64,000 nucleotides of DNA from Pelagibius litoralis (GTDB lineage: Bacteria > Pseudomonadota > Alphaproteobacteria > Kiloniellales > DSM-21159): assembly GCA_029287455.1 (NCBI GenBank), contig JARFRB010000141.1, positions 62,001-126,000 of the forward strand, read 5' to 3'. The notes beneath the pieces were generated by a model. That model worked only from the letters and a program-made list of their open reading frames with translations, made no database searches and was not told the origin of the DNA. A program made the translations under genes and the position numbers. Below are positions 9,463-40,624 of the stretch, piece after piece (position 1 is the first letter of the stretch; each line of letters begins with the position of its first letter).

Positions 9463-9918
9463 ATGCCTGATCGATTAGAAAAGCTTTGTTTGGACAAGGG
9501 CTTGAAGATGACGGACCAGCGTCGCGTCATCGCGCGCGTTCTGTCGGAGGCCGAAGATCATCCTGACGTCGAGCAAGTCTACATGCGCGCGACTCGCATC
9601 GACCCTCGCATTTCAATCGCGACCGTCTATCGCACCGTCAAGTTGTTCGAGGAAGCCAATATCCTAAACCGGCACGACTTCGGCGACGGCCGCGCCCGCT
9701 ACGAGGAAGTGTCGGACGAACATCATGATCATTTGATCGATATGAATACCGGCGAGGTCATAGAGTTCTTCGACGAGGAGATCGAGCGCCTGCAGCGCAA
9801 GATCGCCGAGCGGCTTGGCTACCGCCTCGTGGATCATCGCCTGGAGCTTTACGCGGTGAAGCAGCAAGACGGCGCGGCTCGGACGTCTGGCCCGGAAGGA
9901 GCGCCGGATGGCGAGTGA
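9463..9918 (+). CDS. fur: Fur-family regulator, alphaproteobacterial Fur/Mur type
   Basis: The 151-residue protein has a winged helix (SIATVYRTVKLFEEANI) and a dimerisation domain with the HHDHLID metal site. The usual CxxC pair after that site is absent (D-M-N-T instead), as in rhizobial Fur/Mur proteins, which in some species respond to manganese rather than iron. The metal specificity here cannot be read from sequence. A GGAAGGA ribosome site (9453-9459) supports the ATG at 9463. The 3' end overlaps olsB by 11 bases, so fur may be cotranscribed with olsBA. Confidence 0.94.
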   Translation: MPDRLEKLCLDKGLKMTDQRRVIARVLSEAEDHPDVEQVYMRATRIDPRISIATVYRTVKLFEEANILNRHDFGDGRARYEEVSDEHHDHLIDMNTGEVIEFFDEEIERLQRKIAERLGYRLVDHRLELYAVKQQDGAARTSGPEGAPDGE

Positions 9919-32841: not shown

Positions 32842-33663
32842 TCAGCCGTTCTGCTTTGCCTTGTCCACCTCACCGGCCGTCATGCGGCGCGGATGCGGAA
32901 TGCCGACGATGCCATAGCCGCAGTCCACGTGCACGACCTCGCCGGTCACCCCGCCCGAGAGAGGAGACAAGAGGTAGAGGCCCGAGTCCCCCACCTCCTC
33001 AAGCGCCACCGAGCGATTGAGCGGCGCGTGGTCCCGGCTCCAGCCATAGACGAAGCGCGCATCGGCGATGGCGGAACCGGCCAGGGTGCGCATTGGCCCG
33101 GCGGAAATGGCGTTGACCCGGATGCCCGATGGACCGAGGTCCGCCGCGAGATAGCGCACCGAAGCCTCCAGCGCCGCCTTCGCGACCCCCATCACGTTGT
33201 AGTTCGGGGTGACCCGCTCGGCGCCAAGATAGCTCAAGGTCAAAAGCGAACCCCCCTCGCCCATCAGCGGCAAGGCGGCCTTGGCGACGGCCGTGAAGGA
33301 ATAGCAGGACACCAGCAAGGTGCGGGTGAAGTTGCCGCGCGTGGTGTCAAGGTAGCGGCCCTTCAGCTCTTCCTTTTCCGAATAGGCCACCGCATGCACG
33401 ACGAAATCCAGCGAGCCCCAGTCATTGGCCAGGGTGTCGAAGACCCCCGCCAAACTGGCATCGTCCGTGACGTCACAGTGCAGCACGATCTTAGCGCCGA
33501 TCTTTTCGGCGAGCGGGGCGACGCGCTTGCCGAAGGGCTCGCCCTGATAGGTGAAGGCGAGTTCGGCACCCTCCCGGTCGAGCGCGCTGGCGATGCCCCA
33601 GGCGATGGAGTGATCGTTGGCCACCCCCATGATCAGGCCGCGCTTGCCCTGCATCAGACCCAT
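32842..33663 (-). CDS. fabI: Enoyl-[acyl-carrier-protein] reductase FabI
   Basis: FabI performs the last reduction of the fatty acid elongation cycle using NADH. The 273-residue SDR protein shows GLIMGVANDHSIAWGIA for the nucleotide site and catalytic Tyr145, Tyr155 and Lys162 in the spacing of E. coli FabI. I choose the ATG at 33663 because it precedes the conserved start and follows GGGGGGAA. It is the third gene of the fabA-fabB-fabI operon, 25 bases after fabB. Confidence 0.97.
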   Translation of the reverse strand: MGLMQGKRGLIMGVANDHSIAWGIASALDREGAELAFTYQGEPFGKRVAPLAEKIGAKIVLHCDVTDDASLAGVFDTLANDWGSLDFVVHAVAYSEKEELKGRYLDTTRGNFTRTLLVSCYSFTAVAKAALPLMGEGGSLLTLSYLGAERVTPNYNVMGVAKAALEASVRYLAADLGPSGIRVNAISAGPMRTLAGSAIADARFVYGWSRDHAPLNRSVALEEVGDSGLYLLSPLSGGVTGEVVHVDCGYGIVGIPHPRRMTAGEVDKAKQNG

Positions 33664-33688
33664 GATGGTGTTCCCCCCGCCGCTCGTT

Positions 33689-34909
33689 TCAGGTATCCGG
33701 ACGCATGAAGGCAAGCGAGCAGTTCGTGCCCCCGAACCCGAAGGAGTTGGACAGCACGCAATCCAGCTTCGCCTCCTCGGCCACGCCCTGAACGATCGGC
33801 ATCCCCACCGCTTCCGGGTCCGGATCCTCGAAGTTGGCCGACGCGGAGACGAAACCTTGATCCAGCATCAGCAAGGAATAAATCGCCTCGGTCACACCCG
33901 CCGCCCCTTGCGCGTGACCGGTCAAGGACTTCGTGGAGTTGATGCGCGGAAGATCGGCGCCGAAAACCTCTTTGATCGCCTTCAGCTCAATACCATCGCC
34001 CACCGGCGTCGAGGTGCCGTGCGTGTTGATATAGTCGATGCGCGCGTTGCCCAGGGTGGCCAAGGCCAAGCGCATGCAGCGCACCGCCCCCTCGCCCGAC
34101 GGCGCCACCATGTCGGCCCCGTCGGAGGTCGCGCCGTAGCCAACCAATTCGGCATAGATCTTCGCGCCCCGCGCCTTGGCCCGTTCCATCTCCTCCAGCA
34201 CCACCACGCCGCCGCCACCGGCGATAACGAAGCCGTCACGCCCGGTATCAAAGGGCCGCGAGGCCGCGGCCGGACGGTCGTTGTACTTGGAGGACAGCGC
34301 GCCCATGGCATCGAACAGCATGGAAAGGGTCCAGTGCAGCTCCTCCCCACCGCCGGCGAATACGATGTCCTGCTTGCCGAACTGGATCATCTCCGCGCCA
34401 TTGCCGATGCAATGCCCGCTGGTCGAGCAGGCCGAGGAAATGGAGTAGCTGAGGCCCTTGATCTTGAAGGCCGTGGCCAGGTTGGCGGAATTGGTCGAGG
34501 ACATGCAGCGCGGCACCATGTAGGGGCCAATGCGCTTGACGCCCTTCTCGCGGGCGATGTCGGCCGCCTCGACCTGGTTGGAGGTGGACGGCCCGCCCGA
34601 GCCCATGACCAGACCCGTGCGCTCCTGGCTGATCTCGCTCTCCGAGAGGCCGGCATCGGCGATGGCTTCTTGCATGGCGACGTAGTTGAACGCCGCCCCC
34701 TCGCCCATGAAGCGCCGGAGCCGGCGGTCGATGTGATTGTCCAGATCGATAACCGGCTGGCCCTTCACATGACTGCGAAATCCGCGCTCGGCATAGTCTT
34801 CCGCGAAGACGATCCCGGACCGCCCCTCGCGCAGGGACTGGGTCACTTCTTGTTTGTTGCTGCCGATGCTGGAAACAATGCCAAGCCCGGTTACGGCGAC
34901 ACGGCGCAT
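33689..34909 (-). CDS. fabB: 3-oxoacyl-ACP synthase I (FabB)
   Basis: FabB elongates acyl chains and is required with FabA for unsaturated fatty acids. The 406-residue protein has catalytic Cys161 in [10 protein letters not shown] and the two histidine motifs [11 protein letters not shown] and [11 protein letters not shown]. An AAGGA lies eight bases before the ATG at 34909, favouring it over the ATG two codons upstream (34915). It follows fabA by 36 bases in the same operon. Confidence 0.96.
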
Positions 34910-34945
34910 GCCCATATTCCTTGGAGTCTCGCGAAACCGCCGCCC

Positions 34946-35494
34946 TTACGCCGGCGCGGCCTCCGCCTTGAAGAGGCCGACCTTAAGATCCTTGGCCTCG
35001 TAAATCGTCTCACCATCGGCCTTGAGCACGCCATCGGCGATGCCCAGGACCAATTTGCGAATGATGACGCGCTTGAGATTAAGGTGATAAGTCACCTTCT
35101 TGACGGTCGGCAAAACCTGCCCGGTGAATTTCACTTCGCCCACACCAAGCGCTCTGCCTCGCCCCGGCGCCCCCGTGCGCCCGAGAAAGAAGCCGACGAG
35201 CTGCCAGAGCGCGTCCAGCCCCAAGCACCCCGGCATCACCGGATCGCCCTCGAAATGACAACCGAAGAACCACAGCTCCGGCTTGACGTCCAGTTCGGCG
35301 ACGATCTCGCCCTTGCCGTATTCGCCGCCGTCCTCACTGATATGAGTGATGCGGTCGAACATCAGCATCGGCGGCAAGGGGAGCTGCGCGTTTCCAGGCC
35401 CAAAAAGCTTGCCGTGCGCGCAAGCGATCAGGTCCTCGAACCCGTAGGAAGTCGGTCTATCGCTCAATCCATCGTTTCCCGCTAAGAACCGCAT
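34946..35494 (-). CDS. fabA: 3-hydroxydecanoyl-ACP dehydratase/isomerase FabA
   Basis: FabA dehydrates hydroxydecanoyl-ACP and isomerises the product, the branch point to cis-unsaturated fatty acids. It contains [31 protein letters not shown] and the active-site segment [15 protein letters not shown]. The start is ambiguous: ATG at 35494 gives 182 residues, whereas a TTG at 35467 would give the more usual 173 residues beginning with SDRPTSYG. It is first in the operon and divergent from irr. Confidence 0.94.
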
Positions 35495-35753
35495 ACCTCG
35501 CACAACCTCTCCCCCGCCGATCAGAAAAGCCGAGACGGCCTCCGAACGCAACATCCGAAAGCGCCAAACTATAACACTAGGACTAGCGCTCGCCGCAAGA
35601 GGCGAGGCAACGACATTGTCTTCCCTGAAGACCCGGATTTGCGGATTTTCGGGGCGCAATCGAGCGCAGAGATATTCGATAGATTCCAATCAAGGATGCA
35701 AGGCATTGAATTTCCCCCTTTTCTTTTGTCTGCGGGTTGGCTATATACGGTGC

Positions 35754-36185
35754 ATGAGCACCCCACGCCCTTACAAAGGCCTCATTGACAGGCTGAACGA
35801 CGCCGGCGTCCGTCCGACGCGCCAAAGGCTTGCACTCGCCAAGCTACTCTTCGAAAAGGCCGGCGGGGCGCCATACCGGCACGTTACGGCGGAACAATTG
35901 CATGGCGAAGCCATGGCGGCAGACGTGCGCGTTTCCCTAGCAACGATCTACAATACCCTGCATCAGTTCACTCAGGCGGGTTTGCTGCGCGAACTGGTGG
36001 TCGAGCCTGGACAATCCATGTTTGACACGAATATCGACGATCACCACCACTTCTACCATGAGTCGAACGGAACGCTGGAGGACATTCCCGGCGACGGAAT
36101 CGAAGTCGTCGGCATTCCGGCGGCGCCAGACGGTTCCAGCGTGAAGCGCATCGACGTGATCGTCCGTTTAAGCGACTCTGAGTAA
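35754..36185 (+). CDS. irr: Iron response regulator Irr (Fur family)
   Basis: Irr is the alphaproteobacterial heme/iron-status regulator. The 143-residue protein has the winged helix (RPTRQRLALAKLLF, SLATIYNTLHQFTQAGLL) and the DDHHHFYHES histidine cluster typical of Irr. The Bradyrhizobium N-terminal heme motif GCPWH is absent, as in most other Irr proteins. Divergence from fabA is the usual alphaproteobacterial arrangement. The ATG at 35754 lacks a ribosome site, and a TATATA lies seven bases upstream, so the mRNA might be leaderless. Confidence 0.95.
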   Translation: MSTPRPYKGLIDRLNDAGVRPTRQRLALAKLLFEKAGGAPYRHVTAEQLHGEAMAADVRVSLATIYNTLHQFTQAGLLRELVVEPGQSMFDTNIDDHHHFYHESNGTLEDIPGDGIEVVGIPAAPDGSSVKRIDVIVRLSDSE

Positions 36186-36248
36186 TTCCCCGGGCTGCGC
36201 AGCCTTTCTGAGACGCTTCCCCAAATTTCTGAACGTAGTATTTTTATT

Positions 36249-36265
36249 TTTAGAATTGTTCTAGA
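36249..36265. promoter_or_regulatory. Putative Irr box (ICE-like palindrome)
   Basis: TTTAGAA-TTG-TTCTAGA is a 17-base palindrome with a perfect TAGAA/TTCTA core. It resembles, with one mismatch, the TTTAGAA-N3-TTCTAAA pattern I recall for Irr/iron-control elements. It lies 64 bases after the irr stop and three bases before the -35 box of the rubrerythrin promoter. The match is from memory, not from a motif scan. Confidence 0.65.
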
Positions 36266-36268
36266 CCC

Positions 36269-36297
36269 TTGACCTTGTCTAGCTAGCGGCGTATATC
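36269..36297 (+). promoter_or_regulatory. Sigma70-type promoter for rubrerythrin
   Basis: TTGACC (36269-36274) and TATATC (36292-36297) are separated by exactly 17 bases. Transcription would begin near 36304, giving a leader of about 78 bases. The Irr-like palindrome abuts the -35 box, a position compatible with repression or activation. Confidence 0.7.
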
Positions 36298-36381
36298 TGC
36301 GGTGGCGACGGGCAGGGCGTCAAAAGCGGCCCGTTCTTGAACATCATCATCCGACAAACACATCCGGATTGGAGGCAAGCC

Positions 36382-36801
36382 ATGTCATCCCTTAAGGGCA
36401 GCAAGACCGAAGACAACTTGAAGGAAGCTTTCGCCGGCGAAAGCCAGGCCAACCGTCGTTATCTCTACTTCGCGCAGAAAGCCGACGTCGAGGGCTTCAA
36501 CGACGTGGCCGCCGTGTTCCGCTCCACCGCCGAAGGCGAGACGGGCCACGCCCACGGCCATCTTCAGTTCCTCGAAGAAGTTGGCGATCCGGCCACCGGT
36601 GAGCCGATCGGCGACACCGGCATGAACTTGAAGTCCGCCATCGCCGGCGAGACGCACGAGTACACCGACATGTACCCGGGCATGGCGCGCACCGCGCGCG
36701 AAGAAGGCTTCGATGAGATCGCCGACTGGTTCGAGACCTTGGCGAAGGCTGAAAAGAGCCACGCTGGGCGCTTCCAGAAGGCACTCGACACGCTCGACTA
36801 A
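36382..36801 (+). CDS. Rubrerythrin-family diiron protein lacking rubredoxin domain
   Basis: The 139-residue protein is a four-helix diiron (erythrin) domain. Ligand motifs are visible as [30 protein letters not shown] and [10 protein letters not shown]. The C-terminal rubredoxin domain of classical rubrerythrin is missing, so electrons must come from another protein. Rubrerythrins reduce hydrogen peroxide or act in iron handling. A GGAGG site (36371-36375) supports the ATG. An Irr-like box precedes the promoter, and a terminator follows the gene. Confidence 0.93.
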
Positions 36802-36813
36802 CTGTCGCGCACC

Positions 36814-36860
36814 GGCTCCCGCGCGCGCATTGCAGGCCGCGCGGGGGCCCTCTTCTCTTA
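36814..36860 (+). terminator. Intrinsic terminator between rubrerythrin and the Fe-S gene
   Basis: A 12-pair stem (36814-36825 with 36838-36849, one G-U) and 12-base loop is followed by the T-rich TCTTCTCTTATT. It starts 13 bases after the rubrerythrin stop. It probably ends most rubrerythrin transcripts, with some read-through into the downstream genes, or it uncouples the two units. Confidence 0.72.
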
Positions 36861-36935
36861 TTGGCATTTTCGAGTGGAGCACGTCTCGCAAGCGAGCGCT
36901 CCTGCTCATATCGCTTATCCGGATCGAGGGTTCTC

Positions 36936-38282
36936 ATGCGTGAAGGCAGTCTCGACGCACCCGTGCGTCACATTATTGATTGGAACGATCCGGACTTTTA
37001 CGACCAGGACAAGATCGATGCGGAGATGGAGCGCGTCTTCGACATCTGCCATGGCTGCAGGCGCTGCTTTAACCTCTGCGACTCCTTTCCAAAGCTGTTC
37101 GACCTTATTGACGAGTCCGAAACCGGTGAGCTCGATAGCGTCGACAAGAAGGACTACAAGCCGGTCGTGGACGCCTGCACGCTGTGCGACATGTGCTTCA
37201 TGGTGACCTGCCCTTACGTCCCGCCGCACGAGTTCGATCTGGACTTTCCCCACCTGATGCTGCGCTACCGCGCCGCGGAGCTGCGCCAGGGCAAAGGGGA
37301 CAAATGGGTGCGGGAGCTCACCAAGACCGACCGCAACGGCAAGCTTGGCAGCCGCTTTTCCGGCTTGGCCAACTGGGCCAGCGACACCAAGAACGGCTTC
37401 ACCCGCGGCTTGATGGAATCCGTCGCGGGCGTCGACCGGAACGCGGCTCTGCCGAAGTATCACGCGCCCACCTACCTGGACTTCGCGAAGGCGGAGAACG
37501 TAAAGGTAAACGCGCAAGCTCCCGCCAAGGCGCGCAAGGCCGTGCTCTACGCCACTTGCTTTGCGAACTACAACAATCCCGACATCGGCAAGGCCACCCG
37601 CGCCGTGCTCGCGCTGAACGGCGTTGAGACCGAGGTGGTCTATCCCGGCTGTTGCGGCATGCCGCAGTTCGAACAAGGCGACATGGCGGCGGTGGCGGAG
37701 AACGCGCGCAAGGTCGCCAGGGAAATGTCCGCTTGGATCGACAAGGGCTACGACATCGTCGCCTTGGTCCCCTCGTGCGCCTTGATGCTCAAGTTCGAGT
37801 GGCCCCTGCTGCTGCCTGAGGACGAAAGCGTCAAGAAGCTGAGCCAAGCGGTCTTCGATGTGACCGAATACGTGGTGGATATTGCTGGAAAGGAGGGCCT
37901 AGCCGAAGGCCTGCGGCCGCTGGAAGGCGGCGTCGCCCTGCACATCGCCTGCCATGCACGCGCCCAGAACATGGGCAATAAGGCGCGGGAGATGATGAAA
38001 CTGATCCCCGAGGCGGAGATCAAGCAGCTTCCGCGCTGCTCCGGCCACGGCGGATCCTGGGGCGTCCTCAAGGGGAATTTCGAGACCGCCCTGAAGATCG
38101 GCAAGCCCGTGGCGCTCGATACCCTGAAAGCCAAGCCGCGCTACGTAGCCTCGGAATGCCCCCTGGCCGGGGAGCATATCCTGCAAGGCATGGAGCGCCT
38201 GGCCGAGCCCGGGCAAGATCTGCCCAAGCGCGCCCATCACCCCATCGAAATCTTCGCCCAAGCTTACGGAATCGCCCTATGA
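36936..38282 (+). CDS. Two-cluster Fe-S protein with CCG domains (GlpC/heterodisulfide reductase-related)
   Basis: The 448-residue protein has two ferredoxin-type cysteine sets: C38-x2-C41-x2-C44-x3-C48, and C81-x2-C84-x2-C87 with C92-Pro. It also has two CCG (cysteine-rich) domains. The first CCG domain is complete (YATCFANYNNP and PGCCGMPQFEQG). The second reads HIACHARAQNMG and CSGHGG, so the second Cys of its CCG is Ser. Related proteins (GlpC, HdrB, LutA) pass electrons or bind special clusters. The partner is unknown, but a rubrerythrin upstream and DUF3501 downstream suggest an electron route to a peroxidase. GAGGG precedes the ATG at 36936. Confidence 0.88.
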   Translation: MREGSLDAPVRHIIDWNDPDFYDQDKIDAEMERVFDICHGCRRCFNLCDSFPKLFDLIDESETGELDSVDKKDYKPVVDACTLCDMCFMVTCPYVPPHEFDLDFPHLMLRYRAAELRQGKGDKWVRELTKTDRNGKLGSRFSGLANWASDTKNGFTRGLMESVAGVDRNAALPKYHAPTYLDFAKAENVKVNAQAPAKARKAVLYATCFANYNNPDIGKATRAVLALNGVETEVVYPGCCGMPQFEQGDMAAVAENARKVAREMSAWIDKGYDIVALVPSCALMLKFEWPLLLPEDESVKKLSQAVFDVTEYVVDIAGKEGLAEGLRPLEGGVALHIACHARAQNMGNKAREMMKLIPEAEIKQLPRCSGHGGSWGVLKGNFETALKIGKPVALDTLKAKPRYVASECPLAGEHILQGMERLAEPGQDLPKRAHHPIEIFAQAYGIAL

Positions 38283-38296
38283 CAGGAGACGCCGCC

Positions 38297-38887
38297 ATGA
38301 CCGCCAACCGCGAGATCACCCGCGACGACATCTGGCCGATGGAGCGCTACGAGCCGCAGCGCAAGGCTCTGCGCAAGGCCCTGGTTGAGATGAAGAAGGA
38401 CCGCAGGGTCGAGGTCGGCCCGGTCTGCACCTTCTACTTCGAGAACTATGAGACCATGTGGGCCCAGGTCCAGGAGATGCTCTACATCGAAAAGGGCGGG
38501 GAAGAGCAGGTGGCCGACGAGCTTGCCGCCTATAACCCGCTGATCCCCAAAGGCCGCGAACTGGTGGCCACAGTGATGTTCGAGATCGACGACAAGCAGC
38601 GCCGGACCAACTTCCTGGCGCGCCTGGGCGGGGTCGAGGAAACGGCTTTCCTGGAGTTCGGCGGCGAAAAGGTCGTCGGAGTGCCGGAGGCCGACGTGGA
38701 CCGCACCACCGCCGACGGCAAGGCGTCGTCCGTGCAGTTTATCCACTTCCCCTTCACCGACGCTCAAGCCGAAGCCTTCAAGAAAGGGGACAGCCGCGTC
38801 ATTCTTGGCTTCGAGCATCCGCAGTACAGCCACATGGTGGTGCTGACGGACCCGGTTCAGACGGCCTTGGCCGGCGACCTGGACTGA
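38297..38887 (+). CDS. DUF3501 family protein
   Basis: The 196-residue soluble protein belongs to DUF3501, recognised by its ITRDDIWPMERYEPQRKAL start and the FENYETMWAQVQEMLYIEKGG segment. No cofactor motif is evident and it has no cysteines typical of redox centres apart from one. Function unknown. I choose the ATG at 38297 with AGGAGA eight bases before it; an ATG at 38279 overlapping the previous stop is also in frame. Linkage with the rubrerythrin and CCG Fe-S genes is the main clue to its role. Confidence 0.85.
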   Translation: MTANREITRDDIWPMERYEPQRKALRKALVEMKKDRRVEVGPVCTFYFENYETMWAQVQEMLYIEKGGEEQVADELAAYNPLIPKGRELVATVMFEIDDKQRRTNFLARLGGVEETAFLEFGGEKVVGVPEADVDRTTADGKASSVQFIHFPFTDAQAEAFKKGDSRVILGFEHPQYSHMVVLTDPVQTALAGDLD

Positions 38888-38896
38888 GCGCGGCCT

Positions 38897-39493
38897 CTAA
38901 CGCAGCGCTTCGTTAGGGTAGACACCGAAGAACTCCTCCCGGCGCAGCCAGCCTTCGAAGCCGCCGGCCGCGACGCGGCACCAAGACGGCTCGCAGCCCT
39001 CAAGCTCGCCGATGACGCCCGGTTCCACGCGGGCGACCGGCGGGGCCGTGACCTCCGGCGCGCGGCGCAGAACTCTCGCCTCGCCGGTGACCAGGGCCGT
39101 GCGCCGGCCCCGCAGCATGGATTGGTGCACCCAGCCTAAGGTGCCCTCCCAATCGCGGATTCGCCGCCAGCTTTCGAATTCATCGACCACCTCGACGGGC
39201 AGGTCGCGCCGCTTGAACACCCACTCGATGGGATAGCGAATACCGGGCCCGGTGCGCAGGTTCACCTCGCTTGCCCTCAGCGACACGAAGCGGGGCAAGG
39301 GCAGACCCGTGCGCCCCGGCCGTTCATTCTCCGCCGCGCGGCCAGCCGAGGGAGCCGCCGAGGGAGCTGTGGCCGCCTCCTGCCCGGAAGCTGGCGGGAT
39401 CGGAAAACCGGCACAAGCCAAGATGAAGAGGCACGCGGCCGCTGAAACGCGCGGACGCCGTAGGATGGCGCGTAAGCACTCTCGGATCCTCAT
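38897..39493 (-). CDS. Exported SH3-domain protein
   Basis: The 198-residue product has a signal sequence (hydrophobic stretch about residues 17-37, ending near ASGQ) and an Ala/Pro linker. Two bacterial SH3-like modules follow: the first has VNLRTGPGIRYPIEW and GWVHQSML, the second CEPSWCRV and FEGWLRRE. Such proteins bind peptidoglycan or protein partners in the periplasm. The ATG at 39493 is preferred over an upstream TTG. It converges with the DUF3501 gene and is divergent from the dehydrogenase gene. Confidence 0.85.
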   Translation of the reverse strand: MRIRECLRAILRRPRVSAAACLFILACAGFPIPPASGQEAATAPSAAPSAGRAAENERPGRTGLPLPRFVSLRASEVNLRTGPGIRYPIEWVFKRRDLPVEVVDEFESWRRIRDWEGTLGWVHQSMLRGRRTALVTGEARVLRRAPEVTAPPVARVEPGVIGELEGCEPSWCRVAAGGFEGWLRREEFFGVYPNEALR

Positions 39494-39643
39494 GGAGCAT
39501 CTGCTACCCTGATGGCGCGGCGTGGTCAAGCATGCTCGCGTGTTTCGATGCCCGGCTTGTCTTGCGCGACCCCGCTGGACAAGAGGGCCGCCGCACTGCT
39601 AAACGCCCTTGCTTTTCTCGCGCCGAATTTTCCGGGGAATTCC

Positions 39644-40624
39644 ATGTCGAAACCGCTAGTCGTCGTTACCCGCCGCCTTCCTGACGTCATAGAGACGCGG
39701 ATGATGGAACTCTTCGAGTGCCGCCTCAATCTCGAGGACAAACCGCTCACCCAAAGCGAGTTGATCGAGGCCGCGCGCGAGGCGGAAGTTCTGGTGCCAA
39801 CGGTGACCGACCGGATCGATGCCGGGGTTCTGAGCCAAGCCGGCCCGAAACTCAAGCTCATCGCCTCGTTCGGCACCGGCGTGGACCACATCGACCTCAA
39901 GACGGCGCGCCAGCGCGGCATCACCGTGACCAACACGCCGGGCGTGCTGACCGAGGACACCGCCGATATGACCATGGCGCTGATCCTGGCGGTCTCGCGC
40001 CGGGTGAGCGAAGGCGAGCGTCTGGTCCGCTCGGGCGGATGGACGGGCTGGAGCCCGACCTCGATGCTGGGCCACCGGATTTGGGGTAAGCGCCTGGGCA
40101 TCATCGGCATGGGCCGGATCGGCCAGGCTTTGGCGCGCCGGGCCAAGGGTTTCGGCCTCTCGGTGCACTACCACAATCGCCGCAGGGTGCACGAGGATGT
40201 CGAGGCGGAGCTGGAAGCCACCTACTGGGAAAGCCTGGATCAGATGCTGGCGCGCATGGATGTCATTTCCATCAACTGCCCGCACACACCGGCGACCTTC
40301 CACCTGCTCTCGGCGCGCCGTTTGAAGCTCTTGCGCCCCGACGCCTACGTGGTGAACACCAGCCGGGGCGAGGTGATCGACGAGAATGCCTTGACCCGCA
40401 TGCTGACCAGTGGCGATCTGGCGGGCGCCGGCCTGGACGTCTTCGAGCACGAGCCGGCGATCAATCCCAAGCTGATGAAGCTCGACAACGTGGTGCTCCT
40501 GCCGCACATGGGCTCCGCCACAATCGAGGGACGCATCGCCATGGGCGAGAAAGTCATCATCAACGTGAAAACCTTTGCCGACGGCCACACGCCCCCGGAC
40601 CGGGTTCTGGAAGCGATGTTCTAG
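39644..40624 (+). CDS. D-2-hydroxyacid dehydrogenase (glyoxylate/hydroxypyruvate reductase-like)
   Basis: The 326-residue NAD(P)-dependent enzyme shows the Rossmann motif GIIGMGRIGQALARR and the catalytic Arg (NTSRGEVID), Glu (FEHEP) and His (LPHMGSAT). The sequence is closest in style to glyoxylate reductases, but substrate cannot be fixed from motifs. I choose the ATG at 39644 where the family homology begins. Its TAG stop lies within a CTAG shared with the stop of the convergent small membrane protein gene. Confidence 0.9.
   Translation: MSKPLVVVTRRLPDVIETRMMELFECRLNLEDKPLTQSELIEAAREAEVLVPTVTDRIDAGVLSQAGPKLKLIASFGTGVDHIDLKTARQRGITVTNTPGVLTEDTADMTMALILAVSRRVSEGERLVRSGGWTGWSPTSMLGHRIWGKRLGIIGMGRIGQALARRAKGFGLSVHYHNRRRVHEDVEAELEATYWESLDQMLARMDVISINCPHTPATFHLLSARRLKLLRPDAYVVNTSRGEVIDENALTRMLTSGDLAGAGLDVFEHEPAINPKLMKLDNVVLLPHMGSATIEGRIAMGEKVIINVKTFADGHTPPDRVLEAMF

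Follow-up and report, generated by a model that had tools for sequence, protein, structure and literature searches.

The irr-Rubrerythrin Locus of Pelagibius litoralis

The DNA analysed here, a 64,000-nucleotide stretch of the Pelagibius litoralis genome (assembly GCA_029287455.1, contig JARFRB010000141.1, positions 62,001 to 126,000; hereafter the window), carries irr, the gene of a Fur-family haem/iron response regulator, followed in order by a palindrome of the iron control element (ICE) type, a predicted promoter, and the genes rbr, RFO and DUF3501 (Table 1). Comparison across the Alphaproteobacteria gives good support to the predicted control of this module by Irr, through the linkage of the genes, the near-fixed spacing of the box, and a box that follows the presence of Irr.

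Table 1. Coordinates of the features of the locus in the window
Feature	Position	Strand	Basis
irr (IrrA), Fur-family haem/iron response regulator	35754..36185	+	NCBIfam NF045678, 202.7 bits (cut-off 150)
ICE-type palindrome TTTAGAATTGTTCTAGA, predicted Irr-dimer site	36249..36265	.	position, genome rarity, conservation in relatives
predicted sigma70-type promoter TTGACC-17-TATATC	36269..36297	+	read from sequence; -35 three bases past the palindrome
rbr, aerobic-type rubrerythrin, 139 aa	36382..36801	+	Pfam PF02915 over residues 11-134
stem-loop in the rbr-RFO gap	36814..36849	+	fold of -30.3 kcal/mol; counterpart in relatives
RFO (CCG Fe-S protein), 448 aa	36936..38282	+	Pfam CCG
DUF3501 protein	38297..38887 (possible earlier start 38279)	+	Pfam PF12007, 207.4 bits

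The palindrome, which we take to fit the ICE consensus, is followed by CCC, TTGACC (36269-36274), a 17-nucleotide spacer and TATATC (36292-36297). A strict consensus scan found no promoter or terminator within 35500-39000; its rule requires a -10 element ending in T, which TATATC does not have. The rbr product is close to the solved rubrerythrins 9onm, 4di0 and 8fuh and is also related to sulerythrin, and a Pfam scan matched no rubredoxin domain in it. The sequence of Irr has the histidine cluster HHHFYH and lacks the Cys-Pro motif. A preliminary description of this DNA had named the palindrome, a promoter three bases beyond it, the set of genes with irr directly upstream, and a rubrerythrin without a rubredoxin domain; sequence and profile matches confirm each of these, PF02915 alone being matched in the rubrerythrin.

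The gene set was also considered as a new one, and this was rejected, as it had already been described by Cardenas, Quatrini and Holmes in 2016 (PMC5114695). There the set is assigned to an aerobic-type rubrerythrin (RBR) lineage, RFO receives its name, the three families are reported to co-occur in 185 genomes of 4461, and RFO is proposed to compensate for the lost rubredoxin domain. The window resembles that system in its three co-localised families, its rubredoxin-less RBR and the electron role proposed for RFO. For the eukaryote Andalucia, the three families are reported as well, with their products predicted to be targeted to mitochondria (PMC7050145). Hence the earlier view of an uncharacterised unit does not stand, and the electron-transfer proposal made with it is an independent rediscovery of a published hypothesis; its suggestion of Irr control, in contrast, has been strengthened by comparison (linkage, spacing, and the joint distribution of box and Irr). 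To the published account, the main text of which has no mention of Irr (PMC5114695), the present analysis adds the adjacent irr, the ICE box at its spacing, and the stem-loop past rbr. A link of Irr to the module was not found in the literature searched, and the Irr-regulon reconstruction of Rodionov et al. (2006), Rudolph et al. (2006) or RegPrecise may already list the operon.

Linkage of irr to the Module across Alphaproteobacteria

The preliminary description had proposed a check on the co-occurrence and order of the genes in relatives. In the window's own taxonomic order, DUF3501 is present in 46 of 58 genomes, and the arrangement irr-rbr-RFO-DUF3501 is seen at 44 of the 46 loci, that of the window included. 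One of the two exceptions is cut by a contig end (L072), and the other has remnants only of RFO and DUF3501 (L090).

For the class as a whole we used 289 alphaproteobacterial genomes, with IrrA called above the NCBIfam cut-off. DUF3501 is found in 138 of these and IrrA in 154, and their co-occurrence is pronounced (Fisher p = 3e-26, a statistic that ignores kinship). Positions of IrrA are available for 147 of the 154 genomes, and linkage counts rest on the matches listed. A listed IrrA is present in 114 of the 138 DUF3501 genomes; in 99 of the 138 it is co-directional with DUF3501 and 1.9-2.5 kb upstream, and in 15 it is elsewhere or on another contig. None is listed in 24, and among the loci fetched from those 24 genomes tblastn finds irr upstream in nine (L092, L094, L096, L098, L099, L100, L102, L104 and L107), so that 99 of 138 is a lower bound on linkage. 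Among the 80 loci listed for a set of named relatives, 76 have rbr on the locus, and irr is just upstream in 62 of the 76. Pelagibacterales account for 18 of these 62 irr-linked loci, most of them with the box.

Two observations on the collected loci stand apart. A metagenome-assembled genome titled Ectothiorhodospiraceae has irr-rbr-RFO-DUF3501 with 63% DUF3501 identity (L183), a case of mis-binning or transfer. L090 and L113, from genomes assigned to different families, share ~49 identical bases upstream of rbr and are divergent beyond them, which may reflect a repeat, transfer or contamination.

Conservation of the ICE Box and Its Co-Distribution with Irr

The best match to TTTAGAANNNTTCTAAA was sought in 153 distinct spacers with irr upstream, with first-order shuffles as control. 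It has three or fewer mismatches in 125 of the 153 spacers compared to 2.4% of shuffles, and two or fewer in 95 compared to 0.24%. Thus the search for ICE motifs upstream in relatives, also proposed in the preliminary description, finds the palindrome conserved. TTGAC occurs within 18 nt after the best match in 135 of the spacers, the gap being exactly 3 nt in 100 of the 135 and 4 nt in 18. All 133 sites whose gap is 1-6 nt have T3, A6 and T12, and 132 of them have A15. The box sequences are related and not independent; the DNA around them has diverged. As to palindrome symmetry, positions 4 and 14 alone covary beyond shuffling (reached by 7 of 1000 shuffles).

Within the 3.6-Mb genome, TTTAGAANNNTTCTAAA with at most one mismatch is found at two places, one of them the window palindrome, where 0.017 matches are expected from the base composition of the window. 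At three or fewer mismatches the genome has no excess over a control pattern (20 versus 40, forward strand). A chance palindrome was rejected on the rarity at one mismatch and on the conservation in relatives, the latter being the stronger evidence.

Loci at which irr is not adjacent allow the box to be compared with the presence of Irr elsewhere in the genome. A box with three or fewer mismatches, a threshold set after the data were seen, occurs at 13 of 17 such loci with IrrA in the genome and at 1 of 14 without (Fisher p 0.0002). When the Methylocystis loci are collapsed, the proportions become 9 of 13 versus 1 of 14 (p 0.001). Four variants of the comparison keep p below 0.001; among them, those with the L124 box counted as absent, L113 added, or G254 added give p <=0.0007. 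L251 and L254, from Irr-bearing genomes of the same class (G430 and G513), have a distant module whose RFO is 42-43% identical, and their boxes have 2 and 1 mismatches. The box is absent at three module loci from other classes (5-6 mismatches); this outside-class control is limited to three loci because few genomes in the phylum-level search have DUF3501 (11 of 200).

Several loci weigh against a conserved Irr site. The best match has 4-6 mismatches at 28 of the 153 linked loci, and at 18 of the 153 no TTGAC lies within 18 nt after it. Four Irr-bearing unlinked loci (L190, L194, L201 and L204) are without a good box, the box of L124 is weak (3 mismatches, far upstream), and L093 has a perfect box although no Irr was found in its 96% complete genome.

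Fur-family boxes are similar to one another and the genome has three Fur-family genes, so the palindrome might instead be bound by another such protein (the gene at 9463-9918, for example, is Fur-like) or might act as a sequence-dependent promoter element. We consider this very improbable, as the site fits the ICE consensus, at least 99 of 138 DUF3501 genomes have irr as a direct neighbour of the module, and the box is lacking at 13 of the 14 unlinked loci without IrrA, 11 of those 14 genomes having a weak Fur-like match.

With Irr as the predicted regulator, it is conceivable, and we put it forward tentatively, that irr and the module form a linked sensor-effector unit that is ancestral in Alphaproteobacteria, from SAR11 to Rhodospirillales and Kiloniellales, with the ICE box fixed by the -35 and with L251 and L254 having gained the box independently. 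If so, Irr at the root of the class would have been a haem-gated regulator of peroxide defence as much as one of iron homeostasis. The class-wide link suggests when the module is needed, namely according to haem/iron status. It also provides a direct genetic handle on the module via irr mutants, and SAR11, a group that ranks with the most abundant bacteria of the sea, would be expected to have a conserved Irr target.

Direction of the Predicted Irr Control

In Bradyrhizobium and Rhodobacter, the Irr/ICE regulon (bfr, mbfA/blr7895, ccpA) has the same kind of regulator and palindrome as the window. Its reported targets are iron-binding and peroxide genes, with a rubrerythrin-like gene among them (PMC3413700). 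There are differences: MbfA is a membrane-bound ferritin, whereas the window rubrerythrin is soluble, and in the window irr is physically linked to its predicted target and the box is set against the -35. According to a review, haem-free Irr is the form that binds ICE, and the position of the ICE decides between repression and activation (PMC7762939).

We judge it fairly probable that the aerobic-type rubrerythrin module belongs to the Irr regulon and is repressed at low haem, and we infer Irr binding, the sign of control, the electron transfer and the roles of DUF3501 and the stem-loop in the following scheme. At low haem or iron, apo-Irr dimers on the ICE box by the -35 would hold the rbr promoter low; with plentiful haem and iron, Irr would be released and the iron-rich module made. 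The di-iron rubrerythrin would reduce hydrogen peroxide with electrons from RFO, which is soluble, has a CCG/CSG domain besides two predicted [4Fe-4S] clusters, and would stand in for the missing rubredoxin domain. DUF3501 would probably assist both proteins as an adaptor or in their maturation, and the stem-loop past rbr may allow an excess of rbr over RFO and DUF3501.

As to sign, we lean towards repression. At L114 and L120, neither of them linked to irr, the promoter has TTGACG or TTGACA for its -35 and a -10 overlapped by the box (scores 10.5 and 10); among linked loci, 2 of 135 reach a score of 10. This placement suggests repression at those two loci, and a transcription start inside the box has been read as repressive (PMC3413700). 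As a general proof of repression, the overlap is weakened, since L114 and L120 alone exceed the linked loci. The katG site (8.5) and L180 (9) do not stand out, scores of 8.5 or more being seen at 23 of 135 linked loci. The overlap is partly built in, because the ICE consensus contains the -10-like TAGAAT, and the scan of the window itself prefers such an ICE-internal -10.

Other points against repression favour Irr as an activator, with apo-Irr just upstream of the -35 recruiting RNA polymerase at low haem/iron and the peroxidase rising with the oxidative stress of iron limitation. The near-constant distance from box to -35 would be equally compatible with an activator, and the gap to TTGAC is 3 nt at 100 of 135 sites despite diverged surroundings. 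Direct activation is described as commoner for Irr than for Fur or DtxR (review, PMC7762939). In Ca. Pelagibacter ubique, rbr is reported to rise 1.57-fold at iron limitation (PMC2864753), which is opposite to simple repression at low iron. However, activation is unlikely at L114 and L120, where a good promoter has its -10 overlapped by the box, and building an iron-rich system at low iron would seem uneconomical. We regard activation as possible, and as the less probable sign.

The switch in these proteins may differ from that of Bradyrhizobium-type Irr, which has the N-terminal Cys-Pro haem regulatory motif absent here. Among 94 Irr proteins, the window's included, none has Cys-Pro within its N-terminal 60 residues, and 93 have HxH. 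Two haem sites of Irr have been described (PMC11442138). Given the absent Cys-Pro and the retained HxH, haem release at the histidine cluster appears a likelier switch than Cys-Pro-dependent degradation.

RFO and DUF3501

The module bears on the electron donor of single-domain rubrerythrins and on the function of DUF3501. RFO has eight N-terminal cysteines (two predicted [4Fe-4S] clusters), a CCG repeat and a CSG repeat. An alignment of 115 complete proteins, from fetched relatives of the window's class and the window, has 15 cysteines invariant in all 115, and the substituted position of the second repeat holds Ser in 111 sequences and Ala in the other 4. The Ser-substituted CCG motif of the preliminary description is therefore correct, but it is the normal state of the family, and decay of the second motif was rejected, Ser or Ala being found in every aligned sequence.

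RFO scores below the GlpC equivalog cut-offs (186.5 versus 278 bits and 111.7 versus 279.9 bits). Its AlphaFold model (pLDDT, the predicted local distance difference test, 90.5) resembles LutA (9a6l: Z 23.6, root mean square deviation [rmsd] 2.1, 225 aligned), EtfD (9ojn: Z 22.5, rmsd 3.5, 361 aligned, spanning model residues 7-447) and HdrB (5odc: Z 19.4, rmsd 3.1, 240 aligned). The fold of the CCG domain, at about residues 200-448 of the model, is shared with the HdrB/LutA/EtfD superfamily at Z 19-24. RFO thus has the fold and one CCG motif in common with the GlpC/HdrB/LutA/EtfD proteins, and differs from them in the Cys-Ser of its second repeat (Cys-Ala in 4 of 115) and in scanned neighbours that are not GlpA or GlpB. 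Because the model matches the folds of LutA, EtfD and HdrB, RFO would seem to be built like a soluble electron carrier. Electron donation from RFO to the rubrerythrin is plausible; no biochemical test of it was found in the literature searched.

The AlphaFold model of DUF3501 (pLDDT 91.8) has 3fjv as its sole confident fold match, aligned along the full chain (Z 25.2, rmsd 1.4, 187 aligned, 35% identity); 3fjv is itself a DUF3501 structure without an assigned function. The next matches (CrdA, 4eae, adaptin ears) are at the background level of Z ~6.5-7. In the alignment of relatives, charged residues are conserved at many positions, and cysteine at none. Fusions of DUF3501 with RFO, reported in Nitrosomonas (Cardenas et al., PMC5114695), support a physical partnership of the two, and our guess is that DUF3501 is an adaptor or maturation partner of RBR and RFO.

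One point weighs against the electron-transfer scheme: RBR and DUF3501 occur without RFO, as reported in PMC5114695 and seen here at L124/L259, and RFO is therefore not a universal donor. Such pairs would suit a different arrangement, in which RFO and DUF3501 assemble or repair the di-iron centre of the rubrerythrin, or the protein is a ferroxidase, and a general ferredoxin supplies the electrons. DUF3501, being charged and without conserved cysteines, is also not an obvious redox carrier. We find this unlikely, since the cysteine pattern and fold of RFO match those of the electron carriers EtfD, LutA and HdrB, and RFO with DUF3501 but without RBR is known from one organism only in the published survey (PMC5114695).

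Natural losses of RFO, with rbr kept and RFO absent or a remnant, are found at L090 (genome G032) and L124/L259 (G168). At four loci of one genus (L257, L118, L119 and L121; genomes G121, G240 and G333), DUF3501 has no rbr or RFO match nearby, over the whole 18.8-kb contig for L257 and over 4.2 kb for the other three.

A Stem-Loop after rbr

The case for the stem-loop in the rbr-RFO gap is one of comparison with relatives, not of the window fold alone, which lies within the range that its composition would give (z = -1.42 versus its own shuffles). A sample of 60 of 185 rbr-RFO spacers was surveyed, with mononucleotide shuffles only. The most stable hairpin close to the rbr stop codon has an energy under -15 kcal/mol in 59 of the 60 compared to 39 of 60 shuffled copies, and the mean energies are -28.2 and -17.2 kcal/mol, respectively. 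The hairpin sequence is not conserved among the sampled loci. The 12 nt past the hairpin hold 3.25 T on average, and some copies end in T. Given that a general T-run is absent, the element is better explained as a candidate mRNA 3'-end stabiliser or processing site than as a (leaky) terminator. Such an element may set the ratio of rbr to RFO and DUF3501.

Other ICE-Like Sites and Neighbouring Genes

With two or fewer mismatches there are three ICE-like places in the 3.6-Mb genome: the window site, one before katG (L042, 3205-3221) and one before a ZIP-family transporter gene (L041, 3238-3254). As 0.5 such matches are expected from the window composition, the katG site is not significant by number alone; it is credible through its target, a catalase-peroxidase. 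One site with 3 mismatches lies before an rpoH-like gene (L044, named by eye), at a level where the control pattern yields more matches.

Upstream of irr, and divergent from it, lie fabA, fabB and fabI-like genes (window 32842-35689, minus strand); fabA is divergent to irr throughout the window's own taxonomic order and at many other loci, SAR11 included. On the 3' side of DUF3501, past a convergent SH3-domain gene, is a D-isomer 2-hydroxyacid dehydrogenase gene (39551-40621, plus strand) with no sign of membership in the module. The second Fur-family gene of the window (9463-9918) is Fur-like and scores under the NCBIfam Fur cut-offs.

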